From Novosphingobium cyanobacteriorum (GTDB lineage Bacteria; Pseudomonadota; Alphaproteobacteria; Sphingomonadales; Sphingomonadaceae), in assembly GCF_029436685.1 (NCBI RefSeq), contig NZ_JAROCY010000004.1:1-64000 (forward strand): DNA of 64,000 nucleotides. The letters are read 5' to 3'. The translations under genes were made by a program, and so were the position numbers. Below are positions 59,756 through 62,974 of the stretch, piece by piece (position 1 is the first letter of the stretch; each line of letters starts with the position of its first letter). Below the pieces are notes generated by a model that was not told where the DNA came from, made no database searches, and was given only the letters and a program-made list of their open reading frames with translations.

Positions 59756-60640
59756 ATGACCGCATCCACCATCGCCTTTTCCGGTTCCGCGCTCGATCGC
59801 GCCGATCACATCCGAGCCAATTCGGAAAAGCTGGCCGAACTCACCAACTGGCGCGCCCGCCTGCTCAAGCTTGATGGACTGGCTCCGGTCATCGCGCCCG
59901 AAGGCGGGCTGGAATGGGGCACCCTGGCCGATGCCGATCCCGCCGCCGAACTCGTCTTCCTCGGCCTTTCTGCCGAAGGTCGCGCCTGCTTCGCCGCCGT
60001 CTCGCCCGCATTGATCGGCAGCGTCGCCCCGCCCAGCCCGGCGTTGTGGCAGGTGATGTCGCTGCTCGCGCCCGATGAACTCGCCACTTATGGCGGGGCC
60101 AAGGCGCTGGTCGATTGGCACGCCCGCCACCGCTTCTGCGCCCGCTGCGGCAGCGCCACCGTGCTGGCCAAGGGCGGGTGGCAGCGCAACTGCACCAACG
60201 GCGCGTGCAAGGGCGAACATTTCCCCCGCGTCGATCCGGTCACGATCATGACCGTGGAATGCGATGGAACGCTCCTGCTCGGCCGCCAGCCCCGCTTCCC
60301 GCCCAGGCGCTTCTCCGCGCTCGCCGGGTTTGTCGAGCCGGGCGAAACGATCGAGGAAGCCGTCGCGCGCGAAGTGCACGAAGAAGCGGGCGTGCGCGTC
60401 CGCGATGTCACCTATGTCTGCAGCCAGCCCTGGCCGTTCCCGTCCTCGCTGATGATCGCCTGCCACGCCCATGCCGACGATCCCGCGCTCACCATCGACG
60501 AAACCGAGCTCGACGACGCGCGTTGGTTCTCGCGCGCGGAAGTGGCCCACGCGATGAGCGGGGCCGAAGACGGCGCCTTCATCGCCCCGCCGCCCTTTGC
60601 GGTGGCGCATCACCTGCTCAAATGGTGGCTGGAACAATGA
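59756..60640 (+). CDS. nudC: NAD+ diphosphatase NudC
   Basis: This 294-aa Nudix enzyme hydrolyses NADH and removes NAD caps from RNA. A zinc ribbon CARCGS with later Cys (about 126-150), the Nudix box GFVEPGETIEEAVAREVHEE in outline and the NudC-specific SQPWPFPSS are present. ATG 59756 is chosen over a TTG 18 bp earlier. Coupled to the next gene by ATGA. Confidence 0.95.
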   Translation: MTASTIAFSGSALDRADHIRANSEKLAELTNWRARLLKLDGLAPVIAPEGGLEWGTLADADPAAELVFLGLSAEGRACFAAVSPALIGSVAPPSPALWQVMSLLAPDELATYGGAKALVDWHARHRFCARCGSATVLAKGGWQRNCTNGACKGEHFPRVDPVTIMTVECDGTLLLGRQPRFPPRRFSALAGFVEPGETIEEAVAREVHEEAGVRVRDVTYVCSQPWPFPSSLMIACHAHADDPALTIDETELDDARWFSRAEVAHAMSGAEDGAFIAPPPFAVAHHLLKWWLEQ

Positions 60641-61356
60641 ACGCCCATTCCCAACTCGAACCCGCCTCCGTCACCATAGACATCTGGTCCGACGTGATGT
60701 GCCCGTGGTGCGTGATCGGCACGCGCCAGCTGGAAACCGCGCTCGATGCGCTGGAGGGGGAGATAGAGGCCACCGTCCGCTTCCACCCCTTCGAGCTGAA
60801 CCCTGACATGCCGCCCGAAGGCGAGGAGCAGGCCGCCCACATCCAGCGCAAGTACGGCCGCAGCGCGGCGGAGTCCGCAGGTGTGCGTGACCGGCTGAAA
60901 CAGGCGGCCGAAAGCGCCGGCTATTCCTTCGACTATACCGGCCCCGGCGAAGCCCCGCCCGCCATGATGTGGAACACCCGCGCCGCGCACCGCCTGCTGG
61001 TTTGGGCGCTGCGCGACCTCGGCCCCCAGGCGCAGGTCAGCCTCAAGCACGCCCTGTTCGACGCCCACTTCCGCCTGCGCCGCAACCTGTCGGACCCTGA
61101 TGTGCTGGCCGACATCGCCGAGGAAACCGGGCTTGACCGCACCGCCGCCGAAGCCGCCATCACCGATCCCCAGATCGACGCCATCGTCGAAGCCGGCGAA
61201 CGCCAGGCCTGGGACTGGAACATCACCGGCGTCCCCGCCATGGTCATCAACGGCAAGTTCCTGATCCCCGGCGCCCAGGACCCGGCGACCTATGCGGGAG
61301 CCCTGCGCAAGGTGGTGGAGCGGGAAAGGGCTGCGGCTGAGGCGGCCGAGGACTAA
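60637..61356 (+). CDS. FrnE-like DsbA family oxidoreductase
   Basis: This 239-aa cytoplasmic thioredoxin-fold protein has Cys22-Pro-Trp-Cys25 in IDIWSDVMCPWCVIG and the cis-Pro NITGVPAMVINGKF. It fits the FrnE group of disulfide isomerases linked to oxidative stress. No signal peptide. Last gene of mutY-hydrolase-nudC-frnE. Confidence 0.9.
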   Translation: MNAHSQLEPASVTIDIWSDVMCPWCVIGTRQLETALDALEGEIEATVRFHPFELNPDMPPEGEEQAAHIQRKYGRSAAESAGVRDRLKQAAESAGYSFDYTGPGEAPPAMMWNTRAAHRLLVWALRDLGPQAQVSLKHALFDAHFRLRRNLSDPDVLADIAEETGLDRTAAEAAITDPQIDAIVEAGERQAWDWNITGVPAMVINGKFLIPGAQDPATYAGALRKVVERERAAAEAAED

Positions 61357-61371
61357 GGCAAACCTCCCGTC

Positions 61372-61434
61372 CCTCCCCATTTTTGCGCAGCAACAAATGG
61401 GGAGGTGTCAGCGCGAAGCGCTGACGGAGGGGTG
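61372..61434. repeat. Double-hairpin repeat element
   Basis: CCTCCCCATTT (61372-61382) is perfectly inverted as AAATGGGGAGG (61395-61405), followed by a second hairpin GTCAGCGC-GAA-GCGCTGAC (61107-offset at 61407-61425). This two-hairpin unit looks like a dispersed sphingomonad repeat and lies between convergent transcripts, so it may be the terminator for both the FrnE-like gene and the AT-rich unit. Confidence 0.68.
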
Positions 61435-61471
61435 TTGCTTGCGGAGTTAGTTAAACTGTCCCCCGAATTCC

Positions 61472-61657
61472 CTAATTCCCTGAAATGTTCGGAAAAATCC
61501 GCTTTTTCGCCATTTCCTCAGCAATGCAACCTCCGGGATGCAAACCCAGAACCGACAATGGAATCAGCCCGAGTGCCAGTAATATCAGCAATGCCACCAA
61601 CATCGTAAGGATTCCAGGCGGGCTAATTTTCATTGTTTTGAATTTCGGGAAAACCAT
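61472..61657 (-). CDS. One-TM microprotein of unknown function
   Basis: This 61-aa protein has a basic N-terminus, one long hydrophobic helix (about 15-38, ILTMLVALLILLALGLIPLS) and a short tail with a single Cys and KKR. ATG at 61657 shares TGATG with the stop of the lipoprotein gene, so the two are coupled. Base composition is AT-rich compared with the surroundings. No family recognised. It may form a pair with the lipoprotein. Confidence 0.6.
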   Translation of the reverse strand: MVFPKFKTMKISPPGILTMLVALLILLALGLIPLSVLGLHPGGCIAEEMAKKRIFPNISGN

Positions 61658-62184
61658 CACTGCAAGGCTGTGATGCCAAGCTTATTCATCCAAAATAAAT
61701 TTAGCACATTGCTATCATTTTCATAATGAATTCTTTTATATTTTTGAAAATTGTATTCATATCTTGTAATTGAATATTCTTGATTAATTGATAGATTTAA
61801 AATTTTATTTTTTGACTGAAATTCTTTAGCAATAATGAGCGGCATTTTTTGATAAAATTTCACCGATAGCTCGGTCGGGCCCTCCCACCTTATAAGTGGT
61901 CCCGCGTCGTTTGCCCCTATCCCTCCGACAGGAATCCAAGTCAGATCTTGCAAATCATATTCTCTATTTGAATGTTTCCTTATGAAAATGAATTCATCAC
62001 TTTCTATTGAGCCCGTATCGCAGTTCAATAAGAAAGCCGCAGCATCATATCGAAAATCTGGCGACGTCGCATGGTCACCTACTGCATAGCGACAACTCGG
62101 CCTTGATTGCATGCAGCTGCAGAGTAAGATTAGACCAAGGAGTTTTGGAAGGAGTTTCGGAGACAGTTTACTTAATTGCCTCAT
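61657..62184 (-). CDS. AT-rich lipoprotein of unknown function
   Basis: This 175-aa protein has a basic start (RQLSKLSPKLLPKL), a hydrophobic stretch and a lipobox-like LLCSC (Cys near 23), then a mature part rich in Asn, Lys, Ile and Tyr, quite unlike the Ala/Gly/Arg-rich proteins around. Long A/T runs fill the gene, so it was probably acquired. It ends in a TGATG overlap with the microprotein. It follows an XRE regulator gene by 16 bp. The GPLIRWEGPTELSVKFYQ segment suggests a small beta-sandwich, but no family is recognised. Confidence 0.62.
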   Translation of the reverse strand: MRQLSKLSPKLLPKLLGLILLCSCMQSRPSCRYAVGDHATSPDFRYDAAAFLLNCDTGSIESDEFIFIRKHSNREYDLQDLTWIPVGGIGANDAGPLIRWEGPTELSVKFYQKMPLIIAKEFQSKNKILNLSINQEYSITRYEYNFQKYKRIHYENDSNVLNLFWMNKLGITALQ

Positions 62185-62200
62185 CAAGTCGCACCCCCAC

Positions 62201-62488
62201 TCACCGCAGCAGTTCGCTCACCAGCGAGGGCCTTTGCGCGATCATCGCCAGCAGCACTTGCGCCGGGCCCCTGGGGCGGCGTCGGCCCTGTTCCCAGTTA
62301 AGCAACGTACCCTTGGCCACGCCGATGCTGCGCGCGAAGGCGCTTTGCGAAAGGCCGGTGCTGGCGCGGATCGCCGCGACATCGACCTTGGGCACATCCA
62401 CCGTGTGAACCACCGCGCCAATCTCGCGGCCTTCGGCGAAGGCCAGCGCCTCGCTCAGTCCCTGCTTGATGCTGTCATAGGCGCTCAT
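62201..62488 (-). CDS. XRE/HigA-like helix-turn-helix regulator
   Basis: This 95-aa protein has an N-terminal 40-residue arm and a C-terminal HTH_3 (IRASTGLSQSAFARSIGVAKGTLLNWEQG, in outline 40-70) followed by RRRPRGPAQVLL. This is the HigA/NadS antitoxin type, which normally pairs with a RelE-like toxin. No toxin gene is next to it, so it is an orphan antitoxin or a plain regulator of the lipoprotein/microprotein genes that follow. Confidence 0.82.
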   Translation of the reverse strand: MSAYDSIKQGLSEALAFAEGREIGAVVHTVDVPKVDVAAIRASTGLSQSAFARSIGVAKGTLLNWEQGRRRPRGPAQVLLAMIAQRPSLVSELLR

Positions 62489-62496
62489 GGACCGCC

Positions 62497-62502
62497 ACTA
62501 TA
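62497..62502 (-). promoter_or_regulatory. -10 of the XRE gene (leaderless promoter)
   Basis: On the minus strand GCTATAGT fits the alphaproteobacterial -10 style; TATAGT ends eight bases before the ATG. Transcription would then start at or next to the start codon. No clear -35. Confidence 0.45.
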
Positions 62503-62581
62503 GCAAGCAAAGAGCAGCTTGCCGAGGGCAACCACCGCCGTGTCTTGCCATCGCTCCGCCACTGGCGAGTGTGCCCTCAGT

Positions 62582-62974
62582 TCAAACCAACCCCAGCCGC
62601 GCCAACTCCCCCGCAATCTCCGGCGGCAGGATGTCCGCGCTTTCGCCTTCGCCCAGGTCGGGCGGGCAATCGGCGTGTTCCAGGTAGCGCCAGCCCTGGT
62701 GGGCGCGGCGGGGTTTGGGGTGGACGTCGATCAGGTGGGTCCTGATCACGATCTCGGTGCGACCGTCGGGCGCTTCCTCGAAGCCGATGATCTCGCTGCG
62801 CGCCACCAGTTGGTGCTTGAGGATCCAGTAGACCGAGCCGCCGATCATCTCCGCGGCGCGTTTGGGGCGGTTGCGCGTGGTCAGCTTCGCCACCTCGCCA
62901 CGGGTGCGGAACCAGCCGTGGACTTCGGCCAGCGACTGCGCGCCATAGGCGACCTTGGTCATGCTCAGCGGCAT
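62582..62974 (-). CDS. DUF1489 family protein
   Basis: This 130-aa protein matches DUF1489 of alphaproteobacteria: MTKVAYGAQSLAEVHGWF, TTRNRPKRAAEMIGGSVYWILKHQLVAR and RPRRAHQGWRYLE in outline, ending DCPPDL. Function unknown; cytoplasmic, no signal. It follows mgtE by 13 bp. Confidence 0.85.
   Translation of the reverse strand: MPLSMTKVAYGAQSLAEVHGWFRTRGEVAKLTTRNRPKRAAEMIGGSVYWILKHQLVARSEIIGFEEAPDGRTEIVIRTHLIDVHPKPRRAHQGWRYLEHADCPPDLGEGESADILPPEIAGELARLGLV

Follow-up and report, generated by a model that had tools for sequence, protein, structure and literature searches.

The locus was analysed within a window, meaning the whole 64,000-nucleotide stretch of DNA from Novosphingobium cyanobacteriorum (contig NZ_JAROCY010000004.1; source genome G000, 4.8 Mb in 74 contigs). 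Three reading frames lie here between two convergent native genes, a DsbA-like oxidoreductase gene (60637..61356, plus strand; PF01323, E 2.3e-36) and a DUF1489 gene (62582..62974, minus strand; PF07370, E 9.4e-40). DUF1489 was found in 112 of the 119 genomes of the genus, and the DsbA-like gene is its neighbour in relatives. The three frames, all on the minus strand, are an XRE gene (62201..62488), a lipoprotein-like orphan ORF of 175 residues (61657..62184; ATG at 62184, stop ending at 61657), and a putative 61-codon ORF (61472..61657; ATG at 61657, alternative GTG at 61660). As the original prediction described, they are closely spaced: the lipoprotein ORF starts 16 nt past the XRE stop, and the small ORF overlaps the lipoprotein stop as TGATG.

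The base composition of the three frames is not uniform. The XRE gene (67% GC, GC3 0.83) is similar to the DUF1489, DsbA and NUDIX genes; the lipoprotein ORF has 38% GC, and the small ORF 46%. The AT-rich island spans positions 61447-62175 (729 bp; GC 0.40 inside vs. 0.68 outside), and its right end falls inside the 5' end of the lipoprotein ORF. The XRE gene had been assigned to this island, which is incorrect. The locus is composed of a native part (the XRE gene) and a foreign AT-rich part side by side, rather than one AT-rich unit.

The island ends are 25-nt inverted repeats with 76% complementarity, which, like the remnant of a toxin gene described below, had been overlooked in the original prediction. 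The left copy (61447..61471, plus strand) contains CTGTCCCC, which reads GGGGACAG on the opposite strand; the right copy (62151..62175, minus strand) contains GGAGACAG and overlaps a 12-nt tandem iteration. The two copies are inward-facing. A pattern written from both copies was matched only by those two in the window, and by four places in the whole genome with at most three mismatches; its rarity in shuffled sequence is not independent of these two copies, whereas the searches of the genus and the family are. The repeat already noted near the locus does exist and belongs to another family. It is a palindromic repeat (61357..61446, GC 62%; inverted arms 61372-61382/61395-61405) of the form CCTCCCC...GGGGAGG plus TCAGCGCGAAGCGCTGA, scattered in the genome (e.g. 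C34:122634-122696, 86% over query positions 12-76). A search with positions 61357-61480 yielded 23 matches at E<=1 within the own genome, with the self match and both strands of some places counted.

The XRE protein aligns over its full length with the NadS antitoxin profile NF041265 at 52.5 bits (cut-off 60), and also matches HTH_3 (1e-06). Two of its homologues scored 55.2 bits (L034) and 61.1 bits (L036), the latter passing the cut-off. PADLOC models gave partial matches only. Among 73 named loci with an XRE homologue, a full-length RelE-type toxin match (PF06296, E 4.8e-14) lies directly upstream in 51; of the others, four have a partial toxin match, 14 have none, and four are cut off, the counts being of similarity matches with frameshifts unchecked. 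The toxin precedes the antitoxin, and in several close relatives the two genes overlap as ATGA. An intact toxin is absent beside the XRE gene of the window. Only about the last 17 codons, AVVALGKLLFACYSGGP, and the overlapping TGA are left (62485..62538, minus strand), in frame before the XRE ATG. Scored against 13 intact toxin tails, this stump reached 26.8, compared with 14.6 for the next best of the 98,224 stop-free 17-codon frames of the window. By homology, the XRE gene is therefore the antitoxin half of a RelE (PF06296)/NadS-like pair, with the toxin lost save for these codons. The full-length homology and the retained stop overlap link it to the known pair; however, the truncated toxin and the score below the NadS cut-off set it apart.

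The same remnant occurs in one relative. In the Novosphingobium MAG G167, the stump GLIALGKLLIAHYRDRQ, followed by a stop, lies at the same DUF1489-XRE-DsbA site, and the XRE of this genome is a 92% match to that of the window. The toxin loss therefore probably predates their split, since the stump is common to both. The XRE dN/dS between the two is 0.11 (0.046/0.414), which indicates purifying selection; the values are 0.31 for DUF1489, and 0.39 for DsbA and 0.10 for MgtE over their visible parts. The XRE gene is therefore under about the same constraint as MgtE, and under a stronger one than DUF1489 and DsbA; it is probably still functional. It may persist as an autoregulated DNA-binding protein; alternatively, it may counter homologous toxins that enter the cell, in an anti-addiction role. 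An anti-addiction role was suggested for Klebsiella orphan antitoxins, which are also kept without a toxin, in the available part of PMC7192599; however, the host is different, and the stump is still visible here.

Some other members of this antitoxin family were also found. Within the genus, four further XRE homologues, L051 (G030), L054 (G006), L055 (G062) and L058 (G085), have in-frame stops and are antitoxins of this family in decay. A NadS/RelE-like pair is also present in L184 (JAATWA010000014.1), a record titled as a plasmid of the cyanobacterium Pseudanabaena biceps. Its XRE is 82% identical to the sphingomonad XRE; contamination and transfer are both possible.

The slot between the DsbA and DUF1489 genes was compared in loci from 30 of the 112 genomes with DUF1489; DsbA lies in the locus in 12 of the 29 relatives. 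The DsbA-DUF1489 gap ranges from -12 to 1827 bp, the locus of G167 (L033) included, and in G003 the matches of both flanking genes are 46 bp apart. In G167, the stump and the XRE gene are followed, 17 nt past the XRE stop, by an exact CTGTCACCGTAACTC. Next come a second motif copy with iterations and a gene for a 228-residue BamE-like protein of 43% GC; the far side has only a weak motif copy with three mismatches in 15. This protein (L033:634-1320, minus strand) matches PF04355 exactly at the 23.2-bit cut-off and has an N-terminal hydrophobic stretch by eye. The slot, the antitoxin and the repeat family are thus the same in the two genomes and the cargo is different, which is the strongest indication of an exchangeable cargo that is independent of the XRE gene.

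These comparisons bear on the proposal that the three frames form one defence or toxin-antitoxin operon, in which the XRE protein regulates and neutralises an envelope-active toxin (the microprotein, the lipoprotein, or both) encoded on the same message. XRE regulators often control small toxin operons, and the tight spacing (16 bp and TGATG) would fit such an arrangement. However, the XRE gene is native in composition and the other two frames are foreign; its partner in 51 of the 73 loci is a RelE-type toxin; and in G167 it adjoins a different AT-rich gene. The repeat, of a kind found at transposase ends, also parts it from most of the lipoprotein gene, and neither effector matched a defence profile. 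A true three-gene operon is thus very improbable. The split in composition and the repeat in between indicate that the lipoprotein and the microprotein are not partners of the XRE protein, and co-evolution of the XRE gene with the AT-rich cassette as a toxin-antitoxin or defence unit is not supported. What survives of the earlier comparison with toxin-antitoxin and immunity layouts is that the XRE protein belongs to a RelE/NadS-like antitoxin family, and that slots bracketed by such repeats elsewhere hold AT-rich foreign genes, some of them immunity-like.

The lipoprotein ORF has a lipobox (LCS-C24, by eye). Its frame has 176 codons, whereas the longest frame in 1000 dinucleotide-shuffled versions of the island had 156; it is therefore unlikely to be due to chance. 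Its start codon lies just outside the right repeat, through which the frame reads, so that codons 4-11 (LSKLSPKL, in the n-region) are repeat-encoded. Since the start is outside the cassette, the signal peptide could be a fortuitous fusion. At the limits used, no relatives of the lipoprotein were found in genome contigs, plasmids, phages or viral contigs, or in 396 genomes of the order. Among 148 genomes it occurs only in its own, which is hardly what is expected of a unit shared by all relatives. Weak matches in the 396 genomes (E 0.003 to 1, 38 other genomes) were dismissed, and the two that were inspected, L071 and L073, both span unrelated ORFs.

The 61-codon ORF has a single hydrophobic stretch (by eye), and its stop is supplied by the tandem continuation of the left repeat. 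When its own 190 bp were shuffled 1000 times, a frame of this length arose in 80 cases, and it may therefore be due to chance; it is regarded as a putative gene. No relatives were found in the 148 genomes or in viral contigs; 88 other genomes gave matches at E 0.008 to 1 that look like chance resemblance of hydrophobic helices. As had been stated, neither effector is recognisable: profile searches of Pfam, NCBIfam, PHROGs and PADLOC gave no match above chance for either protein, and none of these collections linked the lipoprotein to a known immunity family. The only weak profile line of the lipoprotein was PF22155 (E 0.21). An AF2 single-sequence model had a pLDDT of 33.9, and its fold was not usable. 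The stretch RWEGPTELSVKF is reminiscent of small exported DUF5412-like proteins; such an identity was rejected, being without profile support.

It might be asked whether the AT-rich segment is simply decayed and functionless foreign DNA, with a truncated lipoprotein ORF fused by chance to the repeat and a spurious microprotein. The lack of relatives of both ORFs in the collections searched would agree with decay, as would the start codon outside the cassette with codons 4-11 taken from the repeat, the small ORF being within chance, and the weak codon-position signal (GC1/2/3 0.43/0.35/0.35). However, the 176-codon frame exceeds all of the shuffles, a plausible signal peptide and lipobox (by eye) have been kept, and such repeats are repeatedly accompanied by AT-rich ORFs of 90 codons or more. 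Decay is considered a rather unlikely account of the segment.

The terminal repeats resemble the terminal inverted repeats (TIRs) of Y1 (TIRYT-type) transposases. The left copy, GGGGACAG, fits the GGGGWSAS core, and the right copy is one mismatch off. In the available part of PMC3733652 this core belongs to some TIRs of TIRYT transposases, not to all; the TIR core is also treated in the available part of PMC6006769. Related repeats (TTAAGTAAACTGTC[AC]CCG[GT]AATT and variants) were found in 18 of the 119 genomes of the genus, and the variant ACCGTAATT, with at most two mismatches, in 23 of 298 genomes and 18 of 96 genera of the family; a reversed control pattern gave no matches in any row shown. 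Y1 transposases occur in 12 of 53 motif regions and in none of 40 controls, and PF01797 is present in L164 and L251. No Y1 transposase lies inside the window cassette. In the own genome, two Y1 queries detected no complete TIRYT gene but only the C-terminal half of a TIRYT transposase, on contig C14 beside another motif copy. An assignment of the repeats to REPs or integron attC sites was dropped, since the transposases in outward-facing pairs and the GGGGWSAS core indicate TIRYT TIRs.

In L315, L320, L326 and L327, the tail of many TIR copies is partly repeated in tandem after the copy itself, for example as repeated CCGTAATTC. Both TIR copies of the window show tail iterations too. These iterations may be a trace of the mechanism.

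The content of the repeat pairs depends on their orientation. A pair was defined as neighbouring copies 200-2000 bp apart, and as inward-facing when the AATT ends face each other; part of the genus motif matches were fetched, and several pairs share one region. A Y1 transposase is enclosed in 6 of 6 unique outward-facing intervals. Inward-facing pairs, not counting that of the window, have one in 1 of 20 (a fragment of 41 residues), and same-direction pairs in 1 of 14. Between inward-facing copies, the GC content was below that of the flanks for 13 of 14 pairs of the first set (window included, one tie) and for all seven pairs of a fresh, previously unseen family-wide set. Combined, this is 20 of 21 with the window included, of which five (L163, L258, L158, L315 and L327) differ from the flanks by just 0.00-0.03. 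Outward-facing pairs had a higher-GC interior in 3 of 3 (first set) and 3 of 3 (fresh set), and a lower one in 0 of 6. Same-direction pairs followed no rule, with GC-poorer interiors for 2 of 6 first-set pairs and 3 of 8 fresh ones (one tie), or 5 of 14. A polarity of GC content was also observed by region. With W=400, GC content drops from the 5' to the 3' side of the motif in 14 of 17 regions from the genus (p 0.013), in 11 of the 12 selected ones, and in 17 of 19 from the fresh set (p 0.0007).

AT-rich ORFs, defined as at least 90 codons and at most 48% GC, are also enriched in the motif regions. In the first set, 15 were found in 34 motif regions (window included) vs. 1 in 20 controls. These 34 regions comprise the window, 13 regions chosen with knowledge of their repeats, cargo or Rhs content, and 20 taken from the genus motif list, not by content, many of whose surroundings had already been seen. 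The effect is weaker in the latter 20, with seven such ORFs in 5 of 20 regions (controls 1 of 20 regions); 4 of the 7 are near the motif compared with 25 of 127 other ORFs (p 0.04). In the fresh set, 20 motif regions contain 32 AT-rich ORFs and 20 controls contain 6, one of which is an artefact of a masked stretch (L346). By region, the counts are 14 of 20 vs. 5 of 20, the latter including the same artefact. Half of the fresh AT-rich ORFs (16 of 32) lie within 100 nt of the motif, compared with 23 of 130 other ORFs (p 0.0003). Because the overall GC content of many fresh regions is 49-59%, an ORF there falls more readily under the fixed limit of 48%; the orientation and polarity tests are independent of this limit. 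The control regions were picked by hand, with round numbers as coordinates, and some motif genomes are without one (G263, G195, G655, G529, G548, G593 and G445 of the fresh set).

Two loci, L158 (G172:C171) and L170 (G172:C235), contain arrays of paired repeats, with inverted copies starting 51 bp apart. The arrays alternate with single ORFs, several of them AT-rich, and with an Rhs fragment; superficially they look like cassette arrays.

The pattern might also arise if TIRYT repeats merely prefer to insert beside AT-rich foreign DNA, and the cassette is not carried by them. Such a preference would be compatible with TIRs that lie beside ordinary genes, as in the 15 of 20 genus motif regions, not chosen by content, that have no AT-rich ORF. 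The mobility of TIRs was itself proposed as still to be assessed in the available part of PMC3733652. However, an insertion preference does not readily account for the orientation rule, by which inward-facing pairs hold low-GC DNA, outward-facing pairs a transposase, and same-direction pairs neither consistently. It also has to explain that both island boundaries in the window coincide with a TIR, and that the same slot in G167 has a different cargo. Insertion beside existing foreign DNA is therefore judged possible, with considerable doubt.

Some of the motif regions suggest a link with immunity genes. The motif occurs in 6 of 22 Rhs-core loci and 3 of 29 XRE loci, compared with 0 of 28 and 0 of 18 comparison loci. 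In some Rhs loci the order is Rhs tail, small exported protein and repeat (L160, 41% GC; L161, 51% GC). A Pfam scan covered 41 motif-region ORFs, namely 40 of the 46 AT-rich ones besides that of the window, plus L112 (49% GC); L244:277-1353, L256:1-347, L163:1-646, L317:4232-4675, L321:2565-3104 and L321:11087-11501 were left out. Immunity or abortive-infection families were matched by 5 of the 41 (Imm39, SUKH and Abi_C once each, and YezG-like twice, both just below the cut-off). There was one match each to M78 peptidase, DUF7946, Sel1, DsrE and acyltransferase models, and at least 31 of the 41 had no match at E 0.01. A crude detector found five lipoboxes among these ORFs. No immunity family was present among the matches listed (25 of 63 families) for 60 control ORFs.

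Orphan immunity genes of Rhs, CDI and T6SS polymorphic toxins are a known category. The cassette resembles them in that small, often exported or membrane proteins lie near Rhs tails beside the repeat, and immunity families are found among the motif-region ORFs. It differs in having no toxin partner: the Rhs core TIGR03696 was not found in the own genome at E 1e-8, and therefore no source toxin is visible. The lipoprotein also resembles none of the 3350 ORFs of the motif loci (best E 0.90). The lipoprotein cassette may thus be described as orphan-immunity-like only from its context.

Taken together, the architecture of an orphaned antitoxin beside a repeat-bracketed cassette is well supported. 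The favoured explanation, held with modest confidence, is that an orphan-immunity-like cassette lies beside a toxin-less antitoxin, the two being independent leftovers in one slot. The toxin was lost, and the antitoxin was kept and selected. AT-rich ORFs are bounded by inward-facing TIRYT-like repeats, a pattern which recurs in the genus and the family. The cassette may have arrived by TIR-based exchange, either transposase-mediated or via recombination between TIRs. Read-through from the XRE message into the cassette might occur, and both parts may be co-transcribed. Translation of the lipoprotein would then begin at the start codon beyond the right repeat and proceed across this repeat, and the protein would be exported and lipidated. 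It might serve as an orphan immunity-type protein, protecting in the envelope against a competitor's toxin. Against this explanation, the two TIRs pair imperfectly (76%), the right copy departs from the published core by one base, and TIR insertion beside already AT-rich foreign DNA could yield part of the pattern.

TIRYT/TIRtron elements resemble the present case in that repeats with a GGGGWSAS-type core flank an IS200-like Y1 transposase, and in that single, dimeric and grouped copies occur as well (available parts of PMC3733652 and PMC6006769). However, these parts place TIRs around the transposase gene or treat them as repeat families, and contain no description of inward-facing pairs that bracket AT-rich foreign genes. 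The terms 'Sphingo' and 'Novosphingobium' are absent from the main text of PMC3733652. In the accessible portions of the literature, RAYT/TIRYT repeats are treated as intergenic repeats that are either miniature mobile elements or structural in nature; among the matches listed, these portions contain no link of TIRYT repeats with Rhs or immunity proteins.

The orphan antitoxin itself is ordinary, and the bracketed cassette is of moderate interest. A speculative wider reading is that inward-facing pairs of TIRs of single-strand (Y1, TIRYT-type) transposases in the Sphingomonadaceae bracket exchangeable cassettes of one or two AT-rich foreign genes, many of immunity type, located at fixed chromosomal slots and in Rhs arrays. 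Orphan immunity genes would then be collected and swapped by a RAYT-like rather than an integron-like route, and the window would be a one-cassette example in which the n-region of the lipoprotein is taken from the repeat. With the supposed three-gene defence unit dissolved, others are spared chasing it. If the wider reading is true, the TIR repeats would gain a cargo, and the combination of repeat, orientation and GC content would be a handle for finding unknown immunity genes of sphingomonads.
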